This document shows, piece by piece, positions 1 through 10,836 of a stretch of DNA of 10,836 bases. The DNA lies in NCBI GenBank assembly GCA_021822995.1, contig JAKAPN010000010.1, positions 1 to 10,836 of the forward strand, read 5' to 3'. Origin of the DNA: an archaeon. GTDB lineage: Archaea; Thermoproteota; Nitrososphaeria; Nitrososphaerales; Gagatemarchaeaceae. A program made the position numbers and the translations under genes. The notes under the pieces are model-generated. The model was given only the letters and a program-made list of their open reading frames with translations. It was not told where the DNA came from and ran no database searches. The stretch's first letter is position 1. The number at the start of each line of letters is the position of its first letter.

Positions 1-738
1 GACTTCGACGCCGTGGTCCACATGGCGGCGATAACAGAGATCAAGAAGACTGTGGAAGACCCCAGGCTCTGCTTCGACGTGAACTGCATGGGGAGCCTGA
101 ACGTGCTCGAGCTCGCCCATCGCAAAAAGGTGTCCAGGATCCTCTGCACTTCCTCCGCGAACGTCTACGGGGCGCCGAAGACCAACCCGGTGACCGAAGC
201 GACCCCCTTCGACCCGAGGGTCCCTTACGACTACTCGAAGGTCATACTTGAGAACATGGCCATGAGCTTCTTCAAGACAAAGGCGTTGCCCGTGTCCCTG
301 ACCCGGAGCTGGCTCCTCTTCGGCGAGCACGACCAGCCCTCCAGGGCGACGATCAGGTTCATCAGGGCGTGCCTCAAAGACGAGCCCCTCACCCTGTTCA
401 ACGGCGGGAGGGACACGACGTCTCCGACTCACGCAATCAACTTCGCGAAGCTCGCCCTGACGATACTGAGCGACGACAGGGCCCTGGGGAAGGCGTTCAA
501 CTTCGGAGGCGAAGGGCCCGTGTCGGTCAAGGAACTGGCCGAGAAGATCAAAGAGCTCACCGGTTCGAAGTCCAAGCTGGTGCTCGCGCCCCCGAGGACC
601 GCCCTCGAGGCGGAGCCTCAGATCAGCTATCCTTCGCTCGAACGGGTGAAGACCGTGCTTGACTACAGGCACGAGCTGACGCTGGAGCAGGGGCTCCAGA
701 GGACGATTGACTGGGTGAAAGCCCAGCCTCAGGCCTGA
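1..738 (+). CDS. NAD-dependent epimerase/dehydratase (extended SDR), 5' truncated by the window edge
   Basis: The reading frame is open from base 1 and ends at TGA 736-738, so only about 245 C-terminal residues are visible. The N-terminal Rossmann glycine motif lies outside the window. Seen: the VVHMAA strand typical of extended SDRs, the serine region LCTSSANVYGAP, and the catalytic YDYSK (YxxxK) about 50 residues before RSWLLFGEHDQP. The C-terminal substrate half contains FNFGGEGPVSVKELAEKI. This pattern is that of UDP-glucose 4-epimerase/dTDP-glucose dehydratase-like enzymes, which act in the cytosol on nucleotide sugars for surface polysaccharides or protein glycans. Substrate cannot be decided from this fragment. 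The sequon-rich surface proteins encoded further right make a role in glycan supply conceivable, but that link is inference. Family assignment is firm and the exact activity is open. Confidence 0.9.
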   Translation, partial: DFDAVVHMAAITEIKKTVEDPRLCFDVNCMGSLNVLELAHRKKVSRILCTSSANVYGAPKTNPVTEATPFDPRVPYDYSKVILENMAMSFFKTKALPVSLTRSWLLFGEHDQPSRATIRFIRACLKDEPLTLFNGGRDTTSPTHAINFAKLALTILSDDRALGKAFNFGGEGPVSVKELAEKIKELTGSKSKLVLAPPRTALEAEPQISYPSLERVKTVLDYRHELTLEQGLQRTIDWVKAQPQA

Positions 739-761
739 AGTCGGGTCCGGACCTCGTCCCT

Positions 762-769
762 CTTATATG
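762..769 (+). promoter_or_regulatory. TATA box for the VOC-family gene (leaderless)
   Basis: CTTATATG is centred about 25 bases before ATG 791. In archaea the TATA centre lies about 25-27 bases before the transcription start, so the mRNA should begin at or next to this ATG. There is no Shine-Dalgarno motif before 791. The upstream in-frame ATG at 767 lies inside the TATA box, which argues against it as the start. Confidence 0.65.
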
Positions 770-790
770 GGGCGGTGCTTCTCTGCCGTC

Positions 791-1207
791 ATGGACAACC
801 TGCTCTCTCCCTACCTTACCTTCAACGGGAACGCCCGCGAGGCGATGAAATTCTACCAGTCTGTGCTCGGGGGCGAGTTGAAGATGACGACGTTCGGCGA
901 GTCGAAGATGGCCCAGTCCCCTGACCAGGAGGATCTGATCATACACGCGGTCCTCAAGGCTGAAGGAGTGACGTTCATGGCCAGCGACTCCATGCCAACC
1001 GCGCAGGCGAAGTTCGGGGACAACATACACATGAGCCTCTCAGGTTCTGACAGCGCCAGGCTCACCAAGATATTCAATGAACTCGCGAAGGACGGCCGGG
1101 TCGACTTGCCGCTTGCAAAGCAGTTCTGGGGAGACGTCTTCGGTCAGCTTACGGACAAGTTCGGCGTGAACTGGATGGTAAACGTCGCTTCTGGGAGGTC
1201 GACCTAA
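791..1207 (+). CDS. VOC superfamily (PhnB/glyoxalase-like) protein
   Basis: A 138-residue protein beginning MDNLLSPYLTFNGNAREAMK. It carries the PhnB-like hallmarks in order: YLTF-GNAREAMKFYQSVLGGE at the N terminus, then IIHAVLKAEGVTFMASD in the middle. The end has LAKDGRVDLPLAKQFWGDVFGQLTDKFGVNWMVN. PhnB-like members of the vicinal-oxygen-chelate fold are small cytosolic dimers. Most have no proven reaction, and names such as 3-demethylubiquinone methyltransferase for this group are misleading. The start at 791 is preferred over 767 because the latter lies in the TATA box. The stop TAA overlaps the uS10 stop on the other strand. Family is clear and substrate unknown. Confidence 0.9.
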   Translation: MDNLLSPYLTFNGNAREAMKFYQSVLGGELKMTTFGESKMAQSPDQEDLIIHAVLKAEGVTFMASDSMPTAQAKFGDNIHMSLSGSDSARLTKIFNELAKDGRVDLPLAKQFWGDVFGQLTDKFGVNWMVNVASGRST

Positions 1208-1515
1208 GAAGTAAGTATCAGCTCTACCTTCACGTCTTCAGGGATCCTCAGCTTCGTGATCTGCCTCATGGTCCTGTCGTCAGGCTGAACGTCTAGGATC
1301 CTCCTGTGGACCCTGAGCTGCCAGTGGTCGAAGGTATGGCTCCCCTCGCCCGTCGGCGCCTTCCTGGTCGTGATCTTCAGCTTCTTCGTAGGGAGCGGCT
1401 GAGGGCCCCGGACCTTGACCCCTGTCTTGTCCGCGATCTCCCTGATGTCGCTGGCGACCTTCTCGAGCTCCGGGAGGTTGGTGCTGGTGAGCTTTATCCT
1501 GGCGAACTGGGCCAT
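1204..1515 (-). CDS. rps10: 30S ribosomal protein uS10 (archaeal S10)
   Basis: A 103-residue protein, the normal size for archaeal uS10. It starts MAQFARIKLTSTNLPELEKV and contains the family core KTGVKVRGPQPLPTKKLKI, then the TRKAPTGEGSHTFDHW loop region. It ends with HRRILDVQPDDRTMRQITKLRIPEDVKVELIL. uS10 sits in the head of the small subunit. In many archaea its gene follows the elongation factor 1-alpha gene, whereas here it stands alone with its own TATA box 30 bases upstream. The upstream neighbour is a sugar-isomerase-like gene. The ATG start fits the family N terminus. The stop TAG (complement of 1204-1206) overlaps the TAA of the convergent VOC gene. Confidence 0.97.
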   Translation of the reverse strand: MAQFARIKLTSTNLPELEKVASDIREIADKTGVKVRGPQPLPTKKLKITTRKAPTGEGSHTFDHWQLRVHRRILDVQPDDRTMRQITKLRIPEDVKVELILTS

Positions 1516-1540
1516 TTTCTTTCATCGGCGCCCGGGAAGT

Positions 1541-1548
1541 CTATTTAG
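1541..1548 (-). promoter_or_regulatory. TATA box for rps10
   Basis: On the minus strand CTAAATAG is centred about 30 bases before the rps10 ATG at 1515, in the 58-base gap after the sugar-isomerase-like gene. The predicted transcription start lies only a few bases before the ATG, giving a very short or absent leader. Confidence 0.55.
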
Positions 1549-1573
1549 ATGTTGCCCGGTCTGCGAATGCCCG

Positions 1574-2374
1574 TCAGCGCAGCCGGTCGAACTTCGCCCT
1601 GGTGGCCTCGAACCCCCACAACACTTCCCGCTCCCCATAGACGTGCGGGTTGAGCTCAAGGCAGACGAGCGCGTCTGTCCCCGCGACTCTTTTCATGAAT
1701 CCCTCCAGCGGAGCGCTCCCCTGGCCTGGGATCAGGTGGTCGTCAGCCGTCCCTGAGTTGTCGCTCAGGTGGGCTTCGGTCACCTTGGCCCCGAGCCTGT
1801 CCAAGACCTCCTTCGGGTCCAAACCGCTCGCGTGGGCGTGGCCTGTGTCGACCGTGCACTTCGCCCCCCCGACGCCCGCGAGAAGCCCCTCGAGCGACTC
1901 CAGAGTGCTCCCAAGCGGGTAGTGGTACATGGACGTGCTCTTCGCCTGGTTTTCCACGTTCACAGACAGCGCCCCTCCCGCGGCTTCCACCATCCCCTTG
2001 ATGGTGGCTATGGCTGCCTCCGCGGACCCTCCCACGAGCTTTTCGCTGTGCACGCTCCCTGGGTGCACCGTCATAATGCTCGCCCCTATCCTCGCCGCCA
2101 TCTCTACCGACCTCACCAGCGCCTTTCCGATGGCCTTCCTCAGCTCGGGGTCGGGGGACGCGGGGTTGAGGTCGGTGAATGGGGCGTGCACCGACACGGT
2201 CATGCCATACGGCGACAGCGCGTCGCGCAGCCGTTTCTCGTCGACCCATCCAGGGTAGGCGTGCGGGAACTCTCCCCAGAGCTCTACGTATCCGATCCCC
2301 GCGTCTCCGATGGATTTCACCGCAGAGTAAACGTCAATGCCGAGGAGCGACCAGGTGCTCAGCCCAAGCTTCAA
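1574..2374 (-). CDS. Sugar phosphate isomerase/epimerase-like TIM-barrel protein (AP endonuclease 2 / xylose isomerase-like family)
   Basis: A 266-residue protein starting MKLGLSTWSL at a TTG codon preceded by GGTGGGATC. It has the spacing of barrel-strand motifs seen in this family: YVELWGEFP (about 30-37), VSVHAPFTDLNPAS (60-73), IMTVHPGS (100-107), LSVNVENQ (136-143), CTVDTGHAHASG (173-184), AHLSDN (201-206), DDHLIPGQG (211-219) and LVCLELNPH (236-244). Candidate metal ligands are Glu141, Asp176, His179, His202, His213 and Glu240. Family members isomerise or epimerise sugars and inositols, and some cleave DNA at abasic sites. The cytosolic sugar role is more likely here but the substrate is unknown. 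It follows the cyclic-nucleotide-binding gene by 32 bases with no TATA box between, so the two are probably co-transcribed. Confidence 0.88.
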   Translation of the reverse strand: MKLGLSTWSLLGIDVYSAVKSIGDAGIGYVELWGEFPHAYPGWVDEKRLRDALSPYGMTVSVHAPFTDLNPASPDPELRKAIGKALVRSVEMAARIGASIMTVHPGSVHSEKLVGGSAEAAIATIKGMVEAAGGALSVNVENQAKSTSMYHYPLGSTLESLEGLLAGVGGAKCTVDTGHAHASGLDPKEVLDRLGAKVTEAHLSDNSGTADDHLIPGQGSAPLEGFMKRVAGTDALVCLELNPHVYGEREVLWGFEATRAKFDRLR

Positions 2375-2383
2375 GATCCCACC
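2375..2383 (-). promoter_or_regulatory. Shine-Dalgarno motif deciding the TTG start of the TIM-barrel gene
   Basis: GGTGGGATC directly precedes the TTG at 2374, with the GGTG core five bases from the start codon. It matches the archaeal anti-Shine-Dalgarno well enough to support this TTG rather than a later codon. Confidence 0.5.
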
Positions 2384-2406
2384 GTTGCCTCAAGAGAGGT
2401 TCTGCT

Positions 2407-2832
2407 TCAGGCCGAGGGCGAGCTCTGCGCTGCCCTGAGCCGCTTCGTGAGCTCCTTGAGCATGGGAATGGCCACCTCCGGGTGTCCCTTTATGAGGCCC
2501 GAGAAGCTCCACGCCGGCAGGACCCAGCACCGGGTGTCTCCCAAAGCGACAACGTCCGCCGACCTGGGCTGGCCGTCTATGACCGACATCTCTCCAAAGA
2601 ACTCCCCTTTCCCCAGCTTTGTCAGGACCTTGCCGCCCTTGCGGACTTCTGCGGTGCCGTCAAGGATGAGATAGAACCCCACGCCAAGCCCCCGCTCTCC
2701 TACTATCATCTCGCCTGGCTTGAATGAGACCTCTTTCCCTTCCGCGGCGATCGCCTTGCGGGTCTTCTCGTCGAGCCCTTCGAAGAAAGGCACGGCGGCG
2801 ATCATCATCACAGCGTCGGAGGGACCCGCCAT
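2407..2832 (-). CDS. Stand-alone cyclic-nucleotide-binding-domain protein
   Basis: A 141-residue protein from ATG 2832. A single CNBD/CRP-like beta-barrel fills almost the whole chain: VPFFEGLDEKTRKAIA (14-29), KPGEMIVGERGLGVGFYLILDG (38-59), then the phosphate-binding cassette GEFFGEMSVIDGQPRSADVV (76-95). Within it Glu81 is the expected ribose contact and Arg90 the expected cyclic-phosphate contact. The C-terminal helix PMLKELTKRLRAAQ follows. No DNA-binding helix-turn-helix, channel or kinase domain is attached, so it would have to act through a partner. An upstream in-frame GTG at 2868 exists, but the TATA box 28 bases before ATG 2832 places that GTG upstream of the mRNA. Ligand identity is unknown and cNMP signalling in archaea is poorly described. 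Likely co-transcribed with the downstream TIM-barrel gene. Confidence 0.9.
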   Translation of the reverse strand: MAGPSDAVMMIAAVPFFEGLDEKTRKAIAAEGKEVSFKPGEMIVGERGLGVGFYLILDGTAEVRKGGKVLTKLGKGEFFGEMSVIDGQPRSADVVALGDTRCWVLPAWSFSGLIKGHPEVAIPMLKELTKRLRAAQSSPSA

Positions 2833-2856
2833 CAGGCGCTCAGGACCGGGTAGCGG

Positions 2857-2863
2857 ATTTAAA
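2857..2863 (-). promoter_or_regulatory. TATA box for the cyclic-nucleotide-binding gene (leaderless)
   Basis: TTTAAAT on the minus strand, centred 28 bases before ATG 2832, lies in the 45-base gap between the end of the surface operon (2878) and that ATG. The spacing predicts a leaderless mRNA, and no Shine-Dalgarno motif precedes the ATG. Confidence 0.65.
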
Positions 2864-2877
2864 CCCACCGAGGGTTC

Positions 2878-4509
2878 TCACGAAACTCTCCCCTCTCTGT
2901 AGGCGGCCTTCCTCGCAAAATAGGCCCGCCAAACGAGCAAGTTCAGCGCCGCTCCCACCGCCAGGATGGCCGCCGCCAGGTAGACGACGTATGGGAATGC
3001 CGCGGACCCGAGGTCGATGGTCTCCAACACCGAACCTCCAGCGGAGACAGTCACGCTCACGGTGGAGGTGCCGCCGGAAGAAGACGCCGTAAGGTTGTAC
3101 GCCCCGGGCGGGAGGAAGAGCGTCAAGGTCCCCGCGTCGCTCGTGTGGAATGTCGGGAGATCAGAGCCCTGCCCTGCGAGCGGGGTCGCCACGACGCTCG
3201 CGTTGGCCACCGGAGCACCCTGCGCCGAGGTGAGGACGTGGACCGTCCCGACCGGGACCTTCAGGGTCGTGGCGGAGTTTGGAGACGCGACGGTGACCGA
3301 GAAGGTCTGCTGCACGATCCCTTCGAAGTCGACCCCCACCGTCACGTTCATCGGGAACGCTGACCCGATGATGTACACCCCGCTCGCGAACTGCTCCCAC
3401 GACTGTATCCCCTGGCCGCTGGCGCTCAAGGAGACTCCGGCCAGCCTTTCATCCTGGGTCGCGCTCCTGACGTCGATCCTCGCCTCCGTGGTGGGGATGC
3501 GGGTGATCGTGAAATTGTCTATCCCATTGTAATCGAACATCGTGATCAGGAAACTGGGCCACGTCGAGCTCGGGCCGTCCAGGTTCGTGTTCATGACGAA
3601 CTGCGAGGCGGTGACGGTGGAGAGCTCTGTGCACCCGTCCAGCGGGATCCATGGGGGGGAACCGGTGTTCAGCAGCTGGCTTTCGTAAGTGCTGAGCCCA
3701 GACGGCCCGTTGACGAACGCGAGAAGCTCGTACCGCCCCGGTCTGAGGTAGAGCTGGTCGTTCAGCTCGATGGACTGTGCGGTGCCGGACTGACCTCCGC
3801 TCCCCACCCCCGAGTCTGCCGCGAGGGTGGACGTGTAGACCAGGCTTCCGCCTTCATAGTACCCCCGGAGCGAGTAGAGCTCGAACCAGAAGCTGAACGG
3901 GGAGAGCGCCGGCGAGGTCCTGACGGAGACGTTGTTCCCCGAGACGGCCACGACCATCGACCCGCCGAGGCTCGCCGGGAAGCGGAATGTCAACGTGGTG
4001 TTCACCAAAGGACCGACGCTGCACGCCTGGATGTTGTAGGCTGGGGTGGGGGGGAGGTCGAAGCCGAGGGCCAGGTTGTTGTTCGAGAGGGTCGCCCCCG
4101 AAAAGGCAGGAGTCAGTCCCTGCGTGGGAGCCTGGAGCGTCACAGTGGTGTTGCTGCTCTCCCCGGTAGATGCGACAGTCGCTTCGAGGGTCCACTGTCC
4201 TGGGGAGTCGCCAACTCCGAACGTGTAAAGGCTCACCAGCCCGCCCGGCCCCAGATAGGCGCTCGGCGTCAGGGTGCCGTTCGGAGCCAGCAGAGACAGC
4301 AGCAGCAAAGACGACGTTTCATACGATCTCACCCAGAGCGAGTCGCCCGAGGCGAACACAGGGGACCCAACGCTCACGGGTACGATGCTCAGGGGGCCGA
4401 AACCGATTCCGATCGGTATCACGGGGGAGTAGGTGACGGACTGCGCGAGCGCGGAGGCTGGGGCGAGCAGCAGCGCCAGCGCGAGCACGGCCAGTATCTT
4501 ATTGCCCAC
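2878..4509 (-). CDS. Large secreted, membrane-anchored surface protein with carboxypeptidase-regulatory-like domain
   Basis: A 543-residue protein from GTG 4509. It has a Sec signal peptide (residues 1-22, hydrophobic LAVLALALLLAPASALA, probable cleavage ALA|QS). A long Ser/Thr/Gly/Val-rich beta-type ectodomain with at least eight N-glycosylation sequons follows, for example NTT, NVS, NFT, NVT, NAS and NLT. Residues about 417-495 read as a carboxypeptidase-regulatory/Ig-like fold (GTVHVLTSAQGAPVANASVV, then DAGTLTLFLPPGAYNLTAS). A C-terminal membrane helix (about 505-527) ends in the basic tail RAYFARKAAYREGRVS. The expected topology is outside-facing with a short cytosolic tail. It is the last gene of the MoxR/DUF58 operon, overlaps the preceding gene by 11 bases and has its own GGTGG motif. 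It is a plausible client or structural surface component. No enzymatic motif seen, and I do not recognise the first 400 residues. Confidence 0.85.
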   Translation of the reverse strand: MGNKILAVLALALLLAPASALAQSVTYSPVIPIGIGFGPLSIVPVSVGSPVFASGDSLWVRSYETSSLLLLSLLAPNGTLTPSAYLGPGGLVSLYTFGVGDSPGQWTLEATVASTGESSNTTVTLQAPTQGLTPAFSGATLSNNNLALGFDLPPTPAYNIQACSVGPLVNTTLTFRFPASLGGSMVVAVSGNNVSVRTSPALSPFSFWFELYSLRGYYEGGSLVYTSTLAADSGVGSGGQSGTAQSIELNDQLYLRPGRYELLAFVNGPSGLSTYESQLLNTGSPPWIPLDGCTELSTVTASQFVMNTNLDGPSSTWPSFLITMFDYNGIDNFTITRIPTTEARIDVRSATQDERLAGVSLSASGQGIQSWEQFASGVYIIGSAFPMNVTVGVDFEGIVQQTFSVTVASPNSATTLKVPVGTVHVLTSAQGAPVANASVVATPLAGQGSDLPTFHTSDAGTLTLFLPPGAYNLTASSSGGTSTVSVTVSAGGSVLETIDLGSAAFPYVVYLAAAILAVGAALNLLVWRAYFARKAAYREGRVS

Positions 4510-5290
4510 GGGCGATCCACCACGAAACCCCGGCGACTGCGATGCTCGGGGGGAGCAGCAAGATTATCGGCGTCCCGGCCAGCGGCAGCAGGGCGAACAC
4601 CCACACCAGGGTGACCGCGGTTGCCGCCACCGACATGGCCAACCCCCTCACCCTGCTCAGCATAACGCCAGCGCCGAGGCCGAGGACCGCGTAGAGCAGT
4701 AAAGATCCATAGACGTCGGCGAGAGCGGCGAAGGTCAGCGCGCCTCCCGACACAACCGATCCCCTTCCGAGCAGCGCGGAGACCGCGATTCCTGCCACTC
4801 CTGCCAGCCCCGTGTGCGATTTTGCCGCCGTAGCCGCCGCGCTTACGAACAGGACCCCGAACTCTGAAGTTGCGACCGCGGCTGGGAGGACCGAAGACAG
4901 CGGCGCCGACCTCGCCATCGACCTTCCGATCCTGAAAGCGGCGTACGGGAGGCCCGCGAAAGCCACCCCGGCCATCCAGCCCAGGAAGAGCTGGGTAAGC
5001 AGCGACCCAACGGGCCCGAGGCCCACCGCGAACGACGCGGCGAGCAGGACGGGCATCGCAAGCGCCTCGGCCCCATAGATGTCCACGGCGAGCGAGGGGC
5101 CGCCGTTGCGTATCCGCTTCACCCCCAGTACCAGCACTGTCTTTACGAACTGCGCGCCGAACACCGCCAGTTCGAAACTGGACGCGAGGCGCAAGATGTC
5201 TGACTGCAGGAAGCTCGCAGCAAGGCTGACGTCAAGAGCGAGGAGTCCCGCTGCGGCCGCGATTGCGACGGCTAGGTTCGTCCGCGTCAC
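4499..5290 (-). CDS. Multi-pass membrane protein of unknown function
   Basis: A 263-residue, strongly hydrophobic protein from GTG 5290 (first residues VTRTNLAVAIAAAAG) with roughly eight predicted membrane helices. Few charged residues occur; they lie in short loops such as GVKRIRNGG, RIGRSMARS and SRVRG, suggesting cytosolic loops by the positive-inside rule. I recognise no transporter or enzyme signature. The open frame runs further upstream to 5386, but that part is an out-of-frame shadow of the DUF58 gene. GTG 5290 forms a four-base GTGA overlap with the DUF58 stop and has a GGGGGTG motif eight bases away. It ends 11 bases inside the next gene. By position it could be the membrane channel, scaffold or polytopic partner of the MoxR/DUF58 pair (inference). 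Confidence 0.82.
   Translation of the reverse strand: MTRTNLAVAIAAAAGLLALDVSLAASFLQSDILRLASSFELAVFGAQFVKTVLVLGVKRIRNGGPSLAVDIYGAEALAMPVLLAASFAVGLGPVGSLLTQLFLGWMAGVAFAGLPYAAFRIGRSMARSAPLSSVLPAAVATSEFGVLFVSAAATAAKSHTGLAGVAGIAVSALLGRGSVVSGGALTFAALADVYGSLLLYAVLGLGAGVMLSRVRGLAMSVAATAVTLVWVFALLPLAGTPIILLLPPSIAVAGVSWWIARGQ
4514..4521 (-). promoter_or_regulatory. Shine-Dalgarno motif for the large surface protein
   Basis: GGTGGATC lies four bases before GTG 4509, inside the end of the preceding gene. It supports the GTG as the real start and is consistent with the clean signal peptide that begins there. Confidence 0.5.
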
Positions 5291-6333
5291 CTGCTCAGCA
5301 CCCCCGCTACCAGCCCGCTGACGTCCTCCTGCCCGGTGAAGAAGACCACGCCCGCGACCCTCGCCCCCTTCCTCTGCGACCCCCATGCCAGAAGCACTGC
5401 GGGCTTCTCCATGACCGCGCCCATGACCTCAGGGGTCGACGCCTCGGATTCGGGCGCGATTATCAGGTCAGCCGACGCCGGGCCGTCCTTCGTCCTGTCC
5501 TTCGGGCCGTGGTCGCCCCACAAGCCTACGAGGGCGGACGCGAGCTCGCCGACGTCCTTCGCTTCGGCCGAAGTCGACGAGCCGTCCACAGTGTGGATCA
5601 GCCTGAGCTTCGTACCGGTCGAGATCACTGAAAGGCCGACCCTGGCTATCGCTTCGGATGCGAGGTCCATCCAGCGGGGGGTCCGCCTTTCGTCTTTGTC
5701 CCGCGGCTCCATGAAGCAGACCGTGAGCCTCTCGGGGATGTTAGCCTCGCCTACCCTGGACATCAGCACGTCTCCCGGGAGCTTCGCGAACCTCTTCCAG
5801 AGTATGTCTTTCGAGCTGCTGGACGGCGCATACACCTCGACCGAGTAGAACTCCTGGCCGAACCCCCTCCGGCCTGCGGGGTAGTCGCCAAGTATCGCTG
5901 CCGAGACCATAAGGGGCTCCCTGCGCTCGAGGAGGGAGGCGGGGAGGAACTCGAAGGAGAGCTCCAGCTCACGGACTTCGGTCCTTGAAAACAGCGCCAG
6001 AGGCTCCGTGAAGCCGACCCTCACCTTCAGCCCGGTGAACACGCCCGCGTATCTCGAGGTCGCAGTAAGCACCCGCCGAGGACCTTCGCCTTCCATCGCC
6101 ACTTCGAGGCCGTCGGGGAAGGACACTACTTCGAGCTCGGCGACCGGGGAGGCCCGCCCCGACGCGAGCAGGAGCTCCATGCTCGCCTTCTCTCCTTTGA
6201 ACGCCCTCGACCTTGACTGGTTGACTGTGAGGGCGAACGCCTCTCTAGGGTAAGCGGCCACCCGCAAGAGCGAGAAGAGCGTGACCACCGCGAGGGCGAA
6301 CCCGAGCGCCATCCCCCACCCGAACCCTGCCAA
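5287..6333 (-). CDS. Divergent DUF58-family membrane protein, MoxR partner (start uncertain; probably extends to 6399)
   Basis: From TTG 6333, the first conventional start codon, the protein has 348 residues: a hydrophobic N-terminal helix (about 5-28), then a beta-rich region (30-135). A degenerate DUF58 core follows: GRRGFGQEFYSVEVYAPSSS (154-173), KDILWKRFAK (175-184). DUF58 proteins are encoded beside MoxR ATPases and are thought to be membrane-anchored adaptors in chaperone-like complexes. In this copy the usual REY-x-PGDD-x-R-x-I-W core is reduced to VEVYAPSSSSKDILW, with Trp and the following basic residues kept. A VWA metal site (DxSxS) is not visible. Twenty-two further codons upstream read IRLTRRGRDLVEAE, the normal DUF58 N terminus, so the true protein is probably about 370 residues. 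The stop overlaps the next gene as GTGA. Confidence 0.82.
   Translation of the reverse strand: MAGFGWGMALGFALAVVTLFSLLRVAAYPREAFALTVNQSRSRAFKGEKASMELLLASGRASPVAELEVVSFPDGLEVAMEGEGPRRVLTATSRYAGVFTGLKVRVGFTEPLALFSRTEVRELELSFEFLPASLLERREPLMVSAAILGDYPAGRRGFGQEFYSVEVYAPSSSSKDILWKRFAKLPGDVLMSRVGEANIPERLTVCFMEPRDKDERRTPRWMDLASEAIARVGLSVISTGTKLRLIHTVDGSSTSAEAKDVGELASALVGLWGDHGPKDRTKDGPASADLIIAPESEASTPEVMGAVMEKPAVLLAWGSQRKGARVAGVVFFTGQEDVSGLVAGVLSR
5299..5305 (-). promoter_or_regulatory. Shine-Dalgarno motif for the multi-pass membrane protein
   Basis: GGGGGTG lies eight bases before GTG 5290. Together with the GTGA stop/start overlap it decides the start in favour of 5290 over the longer upstream frame. 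Confidence 0.5.
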
Positions 6334-6399
6334 GCCCCCGACGACCGAGACCAGTACTTCGGCCTCGACGAGGTCCCGCCCGCGCCGAGTCAGCCTTAT
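6334..6399 (-). other. Probable N-terminal extension of the DUF58 gene with a possible ATA start
   Basis: Twenty-two in-frame codons upstream of TTG 6333 read IRLTRRGRDLVEAEVLVSVV plus two glycines. LTRRGR near the N terminus, followed by a hydrophobic hairpin, is characteristic of DUF58 proteins. None of these codons, nor those I read further upstream back to about 6460 inside moxR, is ATG, GTG or TTG. ATA at 6399-6397 shares bases with the moxR TAA stop (ATAA), the same geometry as a common ATGA overlap. The nearest ribosome-binding candidate, AGTGA at about 6410-6414, is weak. Confidence 0.5.
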
Positions 6400-7340
6400 C
6401 GTGGCGGCTTCACTTTGGTCAAGATGTCGCGCACGACCTGCCGCGGGTCCGTGGCTGTTCCGACGAGGATCGCCGACTGGTCAAGCTTGACCCTGTGTCC
6501 GAGTACGAACACCGCCACTTCCTTGATGTCTTCAGGGACCACGTAGTCCCTCCCGTCCAGGAACGCGACAGCCCTGGCGCAGTGCGTCAGCTGGACGAGC
6601 GCCCTCGGGCTCGCCCCCAGGCTGAGCCGTCCCTCCTTCCTTGTCTCCAGCCCCAGGACCGCCAGGTAGTCTACTATCTCGTCCGAAACCTTCACGCTTG
6701 CCACTTCCTGGAGGGACTTCGCCAGCTCGTCCACGCCAACCACCACCTCGACCTGGGTGGTCGACATGTCGCTCAGGTTCCTTTTGAGAATCGCCGACTC
6801 CGTGCCGAGGTTCGGATAGCCAAGCTCGATGCGCATCAAGAAGCGGTCCAGCTGGTTCTCAGGGAGCGGGTACACTCCCTGGAACTCCTGCGGGTTCTGG
6901 GTGGCGATGACCATGAACGGGTCCGGGAGCGGCTCGGTCCGCCCCTCCACCGTCACCTGGGTCTCCTGCATCGACTCCAGCAGCGCGCTCTGGACCTTCG
7001 GGGGAGCCCTGTTTATCTCGTCTGCGAGGAGGAGGTTGGTGAACACCGGGCCCTTCCTGAACTCGAACTCCCGGTCTTTCATGTTGAAGATGAAGCCACC
7101 TAGCATGTCCATCGGGAGCATGTCTGGCGTGAACTGGATGCGCTTGAACTCGACTCCCATGCACCTGGCGAACGACTTCGCCAAGATGGTCTTGGACACG
7201 CCCGGCACGCCTTCAAGCAGGACGTGCCCACGGGCCAGGAAGGAGACCAAGAGGAGCTCCGTCTCCTTCTCCCTCCCCACGACCACCCTCCCTACCTGGT
7301 CAAGCACTCTTTGTTTTAGTTCCCTTTCCAACAAGTCCAC
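6396..7340 (-). CDS. MoxR-family AAA+ ATPase
   Basis: A 314-residue protein with the complete MoxR set. Walker A is GVPGVSKT (44-51), followed by the family signature FKRIQFTPDMLPMDMLGG (65-82). Walker B is LLLADEINRAPPKVQSALLE (103-122), sensor 1 is VIATQNP (144-150) and the arginine-finger region is LPENQLDRFLMR (159-170). Sensor 2 is GASPRA (242-247), and the C-terminal lid ends before KVKPPR. MoxR ATPases are cytosolic hexameric chaperone-like motors that remodel or mature partner proteins, usually with DUF58 or VWA proteins. Here the DUF58 gene follows directly, and the upstream gene overlaps by 41 bases. The GTG at 7340 has little ribosome-binding support. The GGAGTGG just after it would suit the TTGs at 7334 or 7331, so the start may be two or three codons later. 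Confidence 0.96.
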   Translation of the reverse strand: MDLLERELKQRVLDQVGRVVVGREKETELLLVSFLARGHVLLEGVPGVSKTILAKSFARCMGVEFKRIQFTPDMLPMDMLGGFIFNMKDREFEFRKGPVFTNLLLADEINRAPPKVQSALLESMQETQVTVEGRTEPLPDPFMVIATQNPQEFQGVYPLPENQLDRFLMRIELGYPNLGTESAILKRNLSDMSTTQVEVVVGVDELAKSLQEVASVKVSDEIVDYLAVLGLETRKEGRLSLGASPRALVQLTHCARAVAFLDGRDYVVPEDIKEVAVFVLGHRVKLDQSAILVGTATDPRQVVRDILTKVKPPR

Positions 7341-7689
7341 TCCCCAGTTTTACCGCGAGAGAAATCACGTCCTCCTGCCCCGCCTTGGGCTCCTCTCTCC
7401 CTCCATATCTGTAGGCTTCGTAGGCCGCCAGCCTCCCCCGCACCTTCTCCCAGTCCGTCCTGACCCCCGCCTCCCTCATCCGCTCGAAGGCCTCTTCCCA
7501 GGTGTATCCCTGCGAAAGGTCCGGGAGGAACTTTGCGATCGTCCGGTCCAGCATCTCGAACGCTTCTTTCAGGTCCATCGAGTCAGCGGGCCTGATCCTC
7601 CGCATCAGGGCGTATCCCACGGCAACGGCGCCCAACACCGCCGCATCAGCGACGGCCAGCCAGGTCTCCAGCAGGATCTCACCCGTCAA
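7300..7689 (-). CDS. Small single-pass membrane protein with DUF4129-like cytosolic tail
   Basis: A 129-residue protein from TTG 7689. A single membrane helix (about 7-29, ending MRRIRP) is followed by a soluble tail containing GYTWEEAFERMREAGVRTDW and, a few residues on, LAAYEAYRYGGREE. The tail resembles the DUF4129 segment found at the C terminus of membrane transglutaminase-like proteins that cluster with MoxR and DUF58. No transglutaminase Cys-His-Asp core is present, so it would be the adaptor piece alone. The basic RRIRP after the helix points to a cytosolic C-terminal tail, which could contact MoxR (inference). The start has a good GGTGAGG motif. It overlaps the gene before by 11 bases and moxR by 41. 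The DUF4129 resemblance is read by eye and is moderate. Confidence 0.75.
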   Translation of the reverse strand: MTGEILLETWLAVADAAVLGAVAVGYALMRRIRPADSMDLKEAFEMLDRTIAKFLPDLSQGYTWEEAFERMREAGVRTDWEKVRGRLAAYEAYRYGGREEPKAGQEDVISLAVKLGSGLVGKGTKTKSA

Positions 7690-8491
7690 TGGTCCTCACC
7701 GTCGAGTTGGCCACATATTCGAGGATCCCCAGGGAGGTCGTCGGGAGCGCTCCATATGGGCCGCTGGGGGAAAGCACAACGGTCGTCCCTCCAGGCGAGC
7801 TATAGTACCCTACCACGGTGGCGTTGATCTCCAGCTGCTGAATGCTGAATACGGCGTAGGATGCGTTCTCCGGCAACGTAGCCTGGCCCAACCCCACCAC
7901 CTGGTAGAGGCTGTACCTGTCGTAGCTGAAGGAGCCTTGCACTTCTGCGTACAACAACCCTCCCGGCTGCAGGCCGTATGACTGGTCGGGGTTGACGACA
8001 GACAGCGCAGTCAACCTGGTCAGCTGAGGCGCAACCACGATGACAAGCTCGGTCGTCGCGTTCCCGCTGAAGCTGATCGGGCTCGTGAAGTTGAACTCCG
8101 GCGTCGCCGCTTCTATGGAATAGTTCCCCGCCGTCACCGCGATGGAGCTGGCTCCTGACGAGTTGGTGATCGCGTAGTAGGTGAGCGGCCTTCCTAGCCT
8201 TGACAGGGCGACTTCGGTGGCCGTGAGCGTGAAAAGGAGGTTCGTCATCGGCTCTCGCCGGGAATCGTTCGACCCTGGGCTTGACGTGAACGTCAGCTCC
8301 CCCCCGGGGACGGAGAACGCCTCCACGAGAAGGTGAGGGAACTTCCCGTTCAGCGTCGAGCTCTTCCCTCCTCCGCCGAACCCGCCTGCGCCCACCCCGC
8401 CCAGTCCGGTGGCGTCGAAGGTAAGCCCCATGGCCACGGTCGCTATCACGAATATGATAAGCAGCAGCGCCGCCGTCAACCGGGAGCTCAA
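7679..8491 (-). CDS. N-terminally anchored, sequon-rich surface protein, first gene of the MoxR/DUF58 operon
   Basis: The most likely start is TTG 8491, giving 270 residues beginning (M)SSRLTAALLLIIFVIATVAM. It has one N-terminal membrane helix or uncleaved signal anchor, then a glycine-rich linker (GLGGVGAGGFGGGG) and a beta-rich Ser/Thr ectodomain. At least eight N-x-S/T sequons are present (for example NDS, NSS, NYS, NFT, NAT, NAS, NST). There is no C-terminal anchor and I recognise no catalytic motif or named family. The open frame continues upstream to 8899 but only as a shadow of the aldehyde dehydrogenase gene. The TATA box centred at about 8528 predicts a transcription start near 8501, leaving about ten bases of leader before TTG 8491. 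TTG 8479 is an alternative. It is probably a surface subunit or client of the MoxR/DUF58 system (inference). Confidence 0.72.
   Translation of the reverse strand: MSSRLTAALLLIIFVIATVAMGLTFDATGLGGVGAGGFGGGGKSSTLNGKFPHLLVEAFSVPGGELTFTSSPGSNDSRREPMTNLLFTLTATEVALSRLGRPLTYYAITNSSGASSIAVTAGNYSIEAATPEFNFTSPISFSGNATTELVIVVAPQLTRLTALSVVNPDQSYGLQPGGLLYAEVQGSFSYDRYSLYQVVGLGQATLPENASYAVFSIQQLEINATVVGYYSSPGGTTVVLSPSGPYGALPTTSLGILEYVANSTVRTIDG
7694..7700 (-). promoter_or_regulatory. Shine-Dalgarno motif deciding the TTG start of the small membrane protein
   Basis: GGTGAGG lies four bases before TTG 7689, within the last codons of the preceding gene. It is one of the best ribosome-binding matches in the window and supports the unusual TTG start. 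Confidence 0.55.
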
Positions 8492-8523
8492 CGGGATACG
8501 GTGCGTCGACGGGGCGCGACCGA

Positions 8524-8531
8524 CTAAAAAG
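8524..8531 (-). promoter_or_regulatory. TATA box of the six-gene MoxR/DUF58 operon
   Basis: CTTTTTAG on the minus strand is preceded by AACAAT, which fits a purine-rich BRE. The similar ACAAATCTTATAC occurs at the aldehyde dehydrogenase promoter. It lies about 37 bases before TTG 8491, and no other TATA box is evident at the junctions between here and 2878. The T-run may also act as a termination signal for the upstream gene. Confidence 0.55.
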
Positions 8532-8532
8532 A

Positions 8533-8542
8533 TTGTTAACAA
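8533..8542 (-). repeat. Perfect 10-base palindrome next to the operon TATA box
   Basis: TTGTTAACAA is a perfect inverted repeat one base upstream of the TATA box (minus-strand sense), covering the expected BRE position. A regulator bound there would block TFB/TBP, so it is a candidate operator. At this length chance is possible. Confidence 0.35.
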
Positions 8543-8543
8543 G

Positions 8544-8571
8544 ACCGGCGCGGCGCCGGTCCACCGCGCCG
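8544..8571 (-). terminator. Possible hairpin terminator after the aldehyde dehydrogenase gene
   Basis: Directly after the TAG stop, the minus strand holds the palindrome 8560-8544 (arms ACCGGCGC and GCGCCGGT around one base). An alternative stem pairs 8571-8564 (CGGCGCGG) with 8553-8546 (CCGCGCCG). The two are mutually exclusive. The T-run at 8530-8525 follows about 14 bases later. Archaeal termination depends mainly on the T-run, so the role of the hairpin is uncertain. Confidence 0.4.
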
Positions 8572-10038
8572 CTAGCTTATCGGGAACGCCCACTTCTTGC
8601 CGTTGGCGTATTCGAGCACCTGGATGCTCTTTGTCTCGTAGTAGTGGTCCAGCCCCTCTAGCCCGAGCTCCCTCCCGAACCCGCTCTGCTTGAACCCGCC
8701 GAACGGTACTTCGGCCCTCGAAATCGGCGGGGAGTTGACCCAGGTGGTCCCCGCCTGTATCCTCTCGGCCGCGTGGTACGCCCTCTCGACGTCCCTGGTC
8801 CAGACCGACGACCCCAGGCCAAAGGGGGTGTCGTTGGCGCGCTCCAGGGCTTCCTCGAGGTCCTTCACGACGAATATCGGGAGCGCAGGCCCGAAGCACT
8901 CCTCCTTCGCCATCTGAGCGTCATACCCGACGTCGGTGAGGACCGCGGGGTTGTAGAAGTTCCCCTTCTCCAGCCCGTTCCCTGCCGCCCTCCCTCCCTT
9001 TACGAGGTCCTTGGCCCCCCTGTTCTCCGCGTCCTCGACCATGGACTCGACCTTGGCCCTCTGCTCCTCGGTGTGGACTGGTCCCATGTGGGTCCCCTTG
9101 TCCATCCCGTTGCCTATCCTGATCGTCTTCACCTTCTCCGCGAACGCCCTGATGAACTCGTCAGCGATCGACTCGAAGAGGAAAAGCCGCTTTACCGAGG
9201 TGCACGACTGGCCGCAGTTCCTGAACCTCCCCCAAGCGGCGCCTTCCACCGCCAGTGCAAGGTCAGCGTCGTCGCAGACTATCATAGGATCCGACCCTCC
9301 GAGCTCCAGCGTCAGCCGCTTGATGTGCTTGGCCGAGCCCTCCATTATCCTCCGCCCTGTGCCTGTCTCCCCGGTGAACGCTATCTTCGCCACCTTCGGG
9401 TTGTCCAGCAGCTCCTCTCCCACCACCGCTCCGGGTCCCGTGACCACGTTGACCGCTCCGGGGGTGAGCCCCGCCTTCACCATGAGGCTTCCTACCTTGA
9501 TGTCCGTTATCGGGGTGGTGCTCGCGGGTTTGACAACGAAAGTGTTCCCCGCAGCGAGCCCTGGGGCGACCTTCCACCCCATCAGCGAAACGGGGAAGTT
9601 CCACGGCAGGATGGCGCCGACAACCCCGAGCGGCCGCTTCGTCACTATGAAGAACCCCTCGCCGGTCGAGAAGCGCGTGTGCGCCCCCCGCTCCCTGCCG
9701 ATCAACCCTGAGTAGTACTCGCAGGTGTTCGCGAACGAGTTGACCTCGCCCCGCGCTTCGCCCAGCGGCTTCCCCTGCTCGAGGGTCAGCGTGGTCGCTA
9801 GGTCCTCGACGTTGGCCCGCACCAGCTCCGCTATCTTGAGAAGGGTACGGGACCGCTCTATCGCAGGCTTCTCCGACCAGACCTTGTATGCGTCGCTCGC
9901 CGCGTCAATCGCCCGCTTCGCGTCCTCCCTCGTCCCCTTGGGGACTGAGTCCACGACCTCCCCGGTGGCCGGGTTCGACACCTTGATCACGTCCGCCCCC
10001 TGGGCGTCCGCAGGCTGTCCTTCGATGAGCATCTTCAT
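8572..10038 (-). CDS. NAD(P)-dependent aldehyde dehydrogenase, succinate-semialdehyde-dehydrogenase-like
   Basis: A full-length 488-residue ALDH from ATG 10038. Seen: oxyanion-hole Asn147 in LPWNFP, cofactor Lys170 in VVKPAS, the FTGETGTGRRI cofactor turn (221-231), general-base Glu245 in LELGG, nucleophile Cys279 in NCGQSC, and KEECFGP (378-384) contacting the nicotinamide ribose. It ends with the PFGGFKQSGFGRELG segment. The stretch TLEQGKPLGEARGEV (85-99) is typical of the succinate-semialdehyde/glycolaldehyde/lactaldehyde dehydrogenase group. It oxidises an aldehyde to a carboxylic acid in the cytosol. The exact substrate is open, and archaeal non-phosphorylating glyceraldehyde dehydrogenases look similar. 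It has its own TATA box but lies directly behind an iron alcohol dehydrogenase gene, suggesting linked alcohol-aldehyde-acid chemistry. Confidence 0.93.
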   Translation of the reverse strand: MKMLIEGQPADAQGADVIKVSNPATGEVVDSVPKGTREDAKRAIDAASDAYKVWSEKPAIERSRTLLKIAELVRANVEDLATTLTLEQGKPLGEARGEVNSFANTCEYYSGLIGRERGAHTRFSTGEGFFIVTKRPLGVVGAILPWNFPVSLMGWKVAPGLAAGNTFVVKPASTTPITDIKVGSLMVKAGLTPGAVNVVTGPGAVVGEELLDNPKVAKIAFTGETGTGRRIMEGSAKHIKRLTLELGGSDPMIVCDDADLALAVEGAAWGRFRNCGQSCTSVKRLFLFESIADEFIRAFAEKVKTIRIGNGMDKGTHMGPVHTEEQRAKVESMVEDAENRGAKDLVKGGRAAGNGLEKGNFYNPAVLTDVGYDAQMAKEECFGPALPIFVVKDLEEALERANDTPFGLGSSVWTRDVERAYHAAERIQAGTTWVNSPPISRAEVPFGGFKQSGFGRELGLEGLDHYYETKSIQVLEYANGKKWAFPIS

Positions 10039-10070
10039 GTTGATTCCTGCCTCGCACCCTCCGCCCGCAC

Positions 10071-10077
10071 GTATAAG
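10071..10077 (-). promoter_or_regulatory. TATA box for the aldehyde dehydrogenase gene
   Basis: CTTATAC on the minus strand is preceded by ACAAAT (BRE-like) and centred about 36 bases before ATG 10038. The predicted leader is about ten bases. It lies just after the alcohol dehydrogenase stop codon (10087-10089), so the aldehyde dehydrogenase can be transcribed independently. Confidence 0.6.
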
Positions 10078-10086
10078 ATTTGTCGC

Positions 10087-10836
10087 CTAAGAGTCGAGGC
10101 TCCCCTTCCACATCCGTCCGTACAGGGCAGCCATGCTCTTCGCGTCGAAGACGAGCGGGCTGTTGGGCCGAGGATACATGGTCACGCACTCGTCTGCAAG
10201 GGCAGGGAGGTCGCCTTCGGCGACCCCGAGGGCTTCCAGGGTAGTCGGGATCTTCAGGTGCGCAGCCATTGCCATCACCCTGGCGCCAATGGCCTTTCCA
10301 AGTTCAGCGGGGTCTTCGGTCCCGGACACCCCGAAAGCATCCGCGAGCTTCTTCATCTTCGGCGCGCACGCGACAGCGTAGTTAGATATCACGTAAGGCA
10401 GGGGGAGCCCGCACGACACCCCGTGGGCGAGCTTGAAGCGGGTGGCGATCGTGTATCCAATCGAGTGGCCGTAGACCATCTTAGCCTGCAGGGCGATCCC
10501 TCCCAGGAGCGCGCCCAGGCTCATGGCTTCCCTTGCCTCGCGGTCTCCCCCGGAATCGTAAGCCCTTTCGAGGCTCTGGGCTATCACCCGGATCCCTTCC
10601 AGCGCCGCCGAATCTGTGATGGGGCTGGCCAGGGCGGACAGGTAGGCTTCCGTGTTGTGGCAGAGGGCGTCCATCCCAGTGGCTGCGGTCACCCCCTGAG
10701 GCATCGACAACGTGAGCTCCGGGTCCACTACGGCGACCGAAGGAAGGAGGAGAGGGCTGTTTATCCACTGCTTGTGGCCGTCGACGGTCACCATCGAAGT
10801 GACCGTCAGCTCTGCGCCGGTGCCGGCTGTGGTGGG
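10087..10836 (-). CDS. Iron-containing alcohol dehydrogenase, 5' part outside the window
   Basis: The frame is open to the window edge; 249 C-terminal residues are visible, beginning PTTAGTGAELT, the family's nucleotide/substrate-site motif. Next come SPLLLPSVAVVDPELTLSMP and GVTAATGMDALCHNTEAYLS, which supply two expected metal ligands (Asp and His of DALCH). Two further His ligands lie 14 residues apart in GHSIGYTIATRFKLAHG, the spacing of His263 and His277 in FucO. The His four residues after the first of these (His267 in FucO) is replaced by Tyr. These cytosolic enzymes interconvert alcohols and aldehydes or ketones with NAD(P)H. Family members include 4-hydroxybutyrate dehydrogenase and succinic semialdehyde reductase, which would fit the downstream aldehyde dehydrogenase, but the substrate is not proven. 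Confidence 0.94.
   Translation of the reverse strand, partial: PTTAGTGAELTVTSMVTVDGHKQWINSPLLLPSVAVVDPELTLSMPQGVTAATGMDALCHNTEAYLSALASPITDSAALEGIRVIAQSLERAYDSGGDREAREAMSLGALLGGIALQAKMVYGHSIGYTIATRFKLAHGVSCGLPLPYVISNYAVACAPKMKKLADAFGVSGTEDPAELGKAIGARVMAMAAHLKIPTTLEALGVAEGDLPALADECVTMYPRPNSPLVFDAKSMAALYGRMWKGSLDS

Follow-up and report, generated by a model that had tools for sequence, protein, structure and literature searches.

Do the six overlapping genes around a MoxR-type ATPase on an archaeal contig encode parts of one machine, and how is the partner of the ATPase translated when its reading frame opens without a standard start codon? The genes lie on contig JAKAPN010000010.1 of GenBank assembly GCA_021822995.1 (Thermoproteota; Gagatemarchaeaceae), positions 1 to 10,836 of which form the window, the whole stretch of DNA analysed here. 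The window is a complete contig (C286) of a 1.49 Mb assembly that is ~70% complete. An earlier note, written from the letters of the window, had described a MoxR-DUF58 operon that may mature surface proteins. We read the six products, named A to F in gene order, as one membrane-spanning MoxR complex that would assemble or remodel the surface proteins A and F, with a non-canonical, coupled start of D; we give this combined reading about the same chance of being right as of being wrong. Gene content, order, conservation, a common promoter element and the homologies of C, D, A, F and, stepwise, B emerge from sequence comparison; the physical complex, its topology and its direction of action are what we infer.

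Layout of the six-gene unit

The open reading frames (ORFs) of the unit are all on the minus strand, each overlaps the next, and together they span 2878-8491:

8524 to 8537, minus strand: conserved promoter element AACAATCTTTTTAG, which includes the TATA-like box and recurs before A in own-genus loci
8531 to 8524, minus strand: TATA-like box CTTTTTAG, score 8.5
7679 to 8491, minus strand: A, surface protein with N-terminal membrane anchor, 8 sequons and a TTR/CarboxypepD_reg-like beta-sandwich; TTG start (hydropathy, profile match)
7300 to 7689, minus strand: B, small membrane protein, diverged DUF4129-like; TTG start (stepwise profile matches)
6396 to 7340, minus strand: C, MoxR AAA+ ATPase with a PPR-stop C-terminus; GTG start (AAA_3, AAA_lid_2)
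6410 to 6413, minus strand: GTGA, Shine-Dalgarno-like, ending 10 nucleotides (nt) before codon 1 of D; present in 11/11 own-genus and 29/36 six-gene loci
6397 to 6399, minus strand: ATA, putative non-AUG codon 1 of D, overlapping the MoxR stop TAA (6398-6396) (sequence comparison)
5287 to 6399, minus strand: D, divergent DUF58-like membrane protein with two N-terminal transmembrane (TM) segments; probable ATA start (hydropathy, profile)
4499 to 5290, minus strand: E, polytopic membrane protein; GTG start within the 4-base overlap with D (hydropathy, alignment)
2878 to 4509, minus strand: F, large surface protein with signal peptide, beta-sandwich array and C-terminal TM helix; GTG start (CarboxypepD_reg, model)

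Successive overlaps measure 11 bases for A/B (7679-7689), 41 for B/C (7300-7340), 4 for C/D (6396-6399), 4 for D/E (5287-5290) and 11 for E/F (4499-4509). The earlier note had listed the same six genes and overlap lengths, which we confirm; the C/D value presupposes the ATA at 6399-6397 as the first codon of D.

The gene order recurs in related genomes

A tblastn search of the first loci taken from relatives recovered the order A-B-C-D-E-F. With one profile per gene, all six were found in order in 31 of 44 loci, that is, in 31/36 close and 0/8 distant ones. Two of the five incomplete close loci (L114, L180) stop at a contig end, and the other three (L127, L131, L132) have no recognisable A. 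The profiles were built mostly from loci of the window's own family; L170-L183 contributed none, and 13 of these 14 are complete, L180 being the remaining one. Complete loci include a second family of the same order (f9) and a genome from outside the order (G166). All loci are related by descent, and their counts are not independent trials. Chance was rejected as an explanation of the gene order because the order recurs in other genomes, and an ordered six-gene unit is very likely. The surface and polytopic proteins are thus not missing from the MoxR/DUF58 loci of relatives, the outcome that the earlier note had named as damaging to its proposal: 31 of the 36 close loci keep all six genes. A MoxR tree built from 50 chosen rows places the 27 from six-gene loci in a single clade (support 100/99). 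The three loci without A retain B to F and cluster in this tree (94/93, not a starred branch).

To look further out, we searched 398 genomes of the phylum with F. Some match occurred in 156, among the matches listed mostly to the CarboxypepD_reg region (profile ~420-530); we followed the seven matches listed that lie in the N-terminal part of F. All seven loci reached in this way hold MoxR-DUF58-E-F, and in six of them A- and B-type genes come first. These A and B were recognised in some loci with their profiles and in the others from position and hydropathy; L221 showed no A, and its B is uncertain. L187 forms a bridge, with a DUF58 protein above the Pfam cut-off and an F match at 1e-23. Two loci, L187 (2649-3161) and L222 (3090-3662), have one more DUF4129-like gene, placed between A and B, and this seven-gene version is perhaps the older state.

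The score of 8.5 for the box CTTTTTAG exceeds the 95th percentile of 308 background windows, which is 6.2. No box at the starts of B, C, D, E or F in the window is comparable, with scores of 2.6-4.3 against the same background value. By eye, AACAA followed by (C)TTTTAG precedes A by ~30-40 nt in 8 of 9 own-genus loci, L121 being different; the comparison covers 9 of 11 such loci, L117 and L118 being left out. The top box of an automated scan agrees with this element in 6/9; in L120 and L036 the element was seen by eye and another box ranked first. The TATA box that the earlier note had placed at 8524-8531 is therefore confirmed, as it scores above background and recurs in relatives. The promoter element before A and the translational overlaps are consistent with co-expression of the six genes. 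In Haloferax volcanii and Escherichia coli, genes for subunits of heteromeric complexes are over-represented among short overlaps, according to an excerpt of the study (PMC10666635).

Six products and their relatives

Identification of C as MoxR, already made in the earlier note, is clear from its AAA_3 domain (PF07726; E 9.6e-63, 210 bits against a cut-off of 27), and from its lid domain AAA_lid_2 (PF17863; E 3e-22, 78.6 bits against 22.7). C is the sole match above the AAA_3 cut-off in its own genome, which is incomplete. Across Pfam, NCBIfam and PADLOC, searches with the six window products returned little besides MoxR and one domain of F.

Pfam DUF58 (PF01882) missed D in 22/22 members at E up to 1, hence our term DUF58-like. 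Compared by hhalign with DUF58 proteins, D matched at 98.8% (E 6e-17) over 290 columns, most of its length; the comparison set had 11 rows, 4 confirmed by Pfam and 7 picked by their position after MoxR. By this profile comparison D is homologous to DUF58 proteins, so that the DUF58 label of the earlier note survives as a matter of homology and not at the Pfam cut-off. Against Protein Data Bank (PDB) sequences the D profile found nothing better than E 0.059. Loss of the metal-ion-dependent adhesion site (MIDAS) motif (0/22) was considered as a distinguishing trait of D and dropped, since 10/11 classical DUF58 proteins also lack the strict motif.

For B, a similar distinction applies. Pfam DUF4129 was not found in the window's copy at E up to 1, a distant B (L218) reached 20.6 bits against the cut-off of 24.8 (PF13559), and direct comparison with the DUF4129 profile gave 0.9%, which is not significant. 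Through an intermediate family the two steps gave 93.4% and 98.2%, with a DUF4129 set of three rows of which one (L186) is Pfam-confirmed. On these two profile steps B may be called DUF4129-like; neither Pfam nor direct comparison gives the label that had been proposed for this small protein.

Hydropathy gives A and B one N-terminal segment each, C none, D two near the N-terminus, E many, and F one N-terminal and one C-terminal. Topology was read by the positive-inside rule, which would place the large domains of A and F outside and have B and D face the cytosol. A and F carry eight sequons each. This bears out the description of A as an anchored, sequon-rich surface protein, and F, with its signal peptide and C-terminal TM helix, is the large, secreted, C-terminally anchored protein that had been proposed. 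The A profile matches a domain of F (95.0%, 3.8e-8), and by this comparison the two have a domain in common. Pfam CarboxypepD_reg was found in F (E 2e-8); of 18 aligned relatives of A, 8 show it at E up to 0.1, but the window's own A does not. The structure model of F (pLDDT 87.5) gave Ig/MG-like matches and adhesin- and pilin-like beta-sandwich folds; these are generic beta-sandwich arrays with whole-chain TM-scores of 0.10-0.16 among the 50 matches listed, and they indicate no function. Against PDB sequences the F profile matches mainly the same single domain, and a protein database yielded six matches to F, four of them full-length, query included. Pfam gave no family for the window's own E.

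D is probably read without a standard start codon

The first ATG, GTG or TTG in the D frame of the window is a TTG at 6333. Upstream of it, inside the MoxR stop, begins the conserved N-terminal sequence of D, in most cases xxLTxxG(R/K). The earlier note had missed this lack of a standard start. At this position the 36 six-gene loci have ATA (14), GTA (9), CTA (5), CTG (1), ATG (2) or GTG (5), so that 29/36 have a non-canonical codon. In 27 of these 29 the next ATG, GTG or TTG follows 24 to 171 nt downstream, the other two (L125, L183) having one at 0 and +3; overall, the interval from -3 to at least +23 is free of such codons in 27/36 loci.

Two comparisons put these counts in context. At the overlap of D with E, ATG, GTG or TTG occupies -3 in 23 of 25 own-family loci. 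As a broader control we took seven ~20 kb stretches from relatives, with 77 adjacent same-strand ORF pairs, 24 of them in the frame of the D junction: 12 have a canonical start at -3, 2 have one nearby and 10 have none. Seven of these ten are the MoxR-D junction itself, one per stretch. The other three, ORF pairs with CTA overlaps in L036 and L037 (minus strand, near 1600-2150 of that strand), have no canonical start until >+21 and may be ORF-calling artefacts.

The stretch of D before any canonical start behaves as coding sequence. In nine pooled pairs, the proportion of nonsynonymous differences (pN) was 0.08 and that of synonymous differences (pS) 0.41, compared with 0.13 and 0.40 in the rest of D; in the other two frames of the same region pN exceeded pS. 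Eleven pairs were computed, and in the two omitted from the pool (window/L117, L119/L113) pN was likewise lower than pS; the nine include three drawn from a single trio (L114/L115/L116). Low pN relative to pS in the D frame only argues that this stretch is under protein-level selection and translated in the D frame.

Database records were compared as well. All 109 homologues of D examined lack the conserved N-terminus and none starts at the true one, although some may be contig-end fragments; candidates were those sharing most words with the query, and one of 110 hits (P0116, E 6.6e-6, a classical DUF58) was excluded. The window's own D is recorded 22 residues short, and another homologue starts at position 59. 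In the MoxR tree, as read by eye, members of family f9 switch between NTG and NTA starts. Taken together, sequence comparison lends good support to D being made without a standard start codon. No report of this start codon was found in the literature searched (open-licence PubMed Central, PMC).

How could such a codon be used? In 11/11 own-genus loci moxR ends in GTG-(AAG/AGG)-CCN-CCA-CGA-TAR, with the synonymous choices GTG, CCA and CGA fixed, in rows that are related. Codon use in three genes of these loci counts CGA in 32/655 Arg and CCA in 78/663 Pro positions; being fixed although they are minority codons, these choices look selected. As a result of the fixed codons, GTGA lies 10 nt ahead of ATA and position -3 is an A. 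This motif is found at 24/29 of the non-canonical junctions, at all five GTG junctions and at neither ATG junction. Its position and distribution favour initiation after termination. As the most likely route, we propose that ribosomes terminating on moxR initiate D at an NUA codon within the stop, in a coupled step that the GTGA motif would aid; this may keep D below MoxR in amount. More specifically, we lean slightly towards D being produced only by rare AUA, GUA, CUA or CUG initiation within the MoxR stop, or, less likely, as a MoxR frameshift fusion, which would make the junction a conserved control point that holds the ratio of partner to ATPase low.

Alternatively, ribosomes could slip into the -1 frame where moxR ends and make a MoxR-DUF58 fusion, by which MoxR would be tethered to the membrane; there would then be no separate D. 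D does lie in the -1 frame without ATG, GTG or TTG, the upstream GTGA and the rare CGA before the stop resemble frameshift stimulators, and an excerpt documents archaeal -1 frameshifting for fucA1 (PMC8211752). No slippery heptamer was found by inspection, however: CCN CCA CGA TAR re-pairs poorly in the -1 frame and its first Pro codon varies. Relatives moreover have ordinary ATGA or GTGA overlaps at the same junction, and we think a frameshift unlikely. Single folds of five junctions, inspected by eye, showed no shared RNA structure. Coupled initiation at the MoxR stop, if true, would be a recurrent archaeal non-AUG start that gene callers miss, and the D junction offers a natural, repeated case for testing such starts in archaea.

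A proposed complex for two surface proteins

The six products would form one membrane-spanning complex, in which MoxR, cytosolic and, like its relatives, probably hexameric, would act on those parts of D and B that face the cytosol. Force or a conformational change would be relayed by the membrane segments of D, B and E to the cell surface, where the anchored proteins A and F, with their beta-sandwich ectodomains, would be assembled or remodelled. A single complex of all six is likely on gene order and family relationships, and maturation of A and F by MoxR is plausible. A precedent is the NorQ hexamer with the von Willebrand factor A (VWA) domain of NorD assigned to its pore; an excerpt proposes this mechanism of a MoxR AAA+ ring and a VWA-type partner as general (PMC9976466). 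In the same excerpt the client is nitric oxide reductase, whereas the partner here is divergent and, by hydropathy, membrane-anchored. The recurrent set suggests concrete clients for an archaeal MoxR system, namely two anchored surface proteins of the same operon.

The same components could instead face the cell interior. In a sensor, A and F would bind outside and signal inward through B, D and E to MoxR, which would then act on cytosolic clients. Adhesin- and pilin-like ectodomains tied to a cytosolic MoxR by conserved gene order would suit such a role. The six products have no kinase, receiver or regulator family match. The neighbouring cyclic-nucleotide-binding-like gene, in front of which a separate TATA-like box was seen by eye, comes after F in most own-genus stretches and was not seen in those of other genera; a sensor seems to us improbable. 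A defence role was dropped: there were no matches, and own-genus flanks look metabolic and ribosomal. In PADLOC, five of the proteins had no match at E up to 0.01, and MoxR had just weak IetA/DolB/TRIP13 matches.

Several observations weigh against our combined reading of one complex and a coupled start. The unit is a patchy, accessory system, given its occurrence: D is present in 28/46 genomes of the family (8/15 near-complete ones), in 46/151 sampled from the order with many weak, partial matches, and in 20/250 sampled from the class; G019, a one-contig genome of the genus, has no D, and G032 carries four copies (L126, L183, contigs C20 and C140), with the full unit at the two examined. None of the eight distant loci has all six genes by profile, several parts being too diverged, and E in these loci is assigned by position and hydropathy only. 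A is absent from three close loci and unseen in L221, and may therefore be dispensable. With regard to the start of D, GTGA is missing from 5/29 non-canonical loci, and GUA and CUA are very poor initiators. In L187 the PPR end is combined with a normal ATG start, which shows that PPR by itself does not signal recoding. At the overlap of D with E in f9 and G166, only 4/10 loci with E have a canonical -3 codon; this codon is ATA in L171 (f9), with the next ATG at +21, and CTG in L179 (G166), with an ATG at 0.

Relation to known MoxR systems

An archaeal secretion or membrane-remodelling complex predicted in 2015 around the DUF4350 protein arCOG01314 contains a vWA/Ig protein besides MoxR, together with S-layer Ig proteins and polytopic proteins (PMC5898192). 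It is the closest published kind, of which the present unit is a variant without DUF4350. Compared by type of product, both have MoxR, anchored Ig-like surface proteins and a polytopic membrane protein; the published partner is vWA/Ig, and D is DUF58-like by profile. They differ in that the six window products have no DUF4350 (PF14258) and stand in a fixed order with a DUF4129-like protein. G040 has a separate DUF4350-MoxR-DUF58 locus, L184 (PF14258 6.4e-9, DUF58 2.7e-8), beside its six-gene unit, and the two therefore coexist as distinct loci. L184:440-5530 includes a surface-type protein with CarboxypepD_reg at 28.2 bits, below the cut-off. Our comparison adds a separate architecture without DUF4350 to the published model.

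That model also motivates an export machine, in which A, E and F would be conduit or gate and MoxR and D would power secretion of unlinked cargo, as proposed for arCOG01314. The components are indeed similar to those of the published model (PMC5898192). The missing DUF4350 match, the separate DUF4350 locus in G040 and the lack of an evident cargo gene beside the unit make export rather unlikely, though a somewhat better candidate than a sensor, and we continue to prefer assembly or remodelling of A and F.

Classical MoxR-DUF58 loci (L184, L185, L186) share MoxR and DUF58 with the unit, and L186 also DUF4129, but their DUF58 and DUF4129 proteins exceed the Pfam cut-offs. Profiles of A, B, E and F found no match in these three loci at E up to 1e-3, although DUF58 is followed by a polytopic gene in L186.

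Bat (aerotolerance) operons combine MoxR with a DUF58-type partner. No BatA/BatB-type VWA match occurs among the six products, and family searches found neither transglutaminase nor VWA families in them. Here the earlier note, which had stressed the lack of VWA/Bat proteins and transglutaminase, needs one amendment. We take arCOG02742 and arCOG02747 to be DUF58 proteins. A table of the 2015 study, in excerpt, gives the MoxR partner under these two numbers as an Ig plus vWA protein (PMC5898192). The absence of VWA may therefore be no real difference from the arCOG01314 system.

In bifidobacteria, the PFNA operon has the order pkb2-fn3-MoxR-duf58-tgm and, like the unit, joins MoxR and DUF58 genes to a large secreted surface protein, there an FN3 protein (PMC8430577, excerpt). 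It encodes a Ser/Thr kinase and a transglutaminase, for which the six products gave no match, and the excerpt names no counterparts of B and E. With no match to kinase, transglutaminase or BatA/BatB families, the layout departs from the PFNA and Bat operons; it is less singular than the earlier note implied, given this excerpted MoxR-DUF58-FN3 operon (PMC8430577) and the related archaeal arrangement predicted in 2015 (PMC5898192). No report of the six-gene unit was found in the open-licence PMC literature searched.

Neighbouring genes

Neither an Rfam match nor a tRNA was found in the window. Upstream of the unit lie an aldehyde dehydrogenase gene, identified by family search, and an alcohol-dehydrogenase-like gene, by our reading of ORFs and family hits. 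Downstream are uS10 (family search) and, on our reading, cyclic-nucleotide-binding-like and sugar-phosphate-isomerase-like genes. By eye, TTTAAAT stands ~31 nt before the ATG (2832) of the cyclic-nucleotide-binding-like gene (region 2830-2863), which suggests a separate promoter for this gene, with F as the last gene of the unit.

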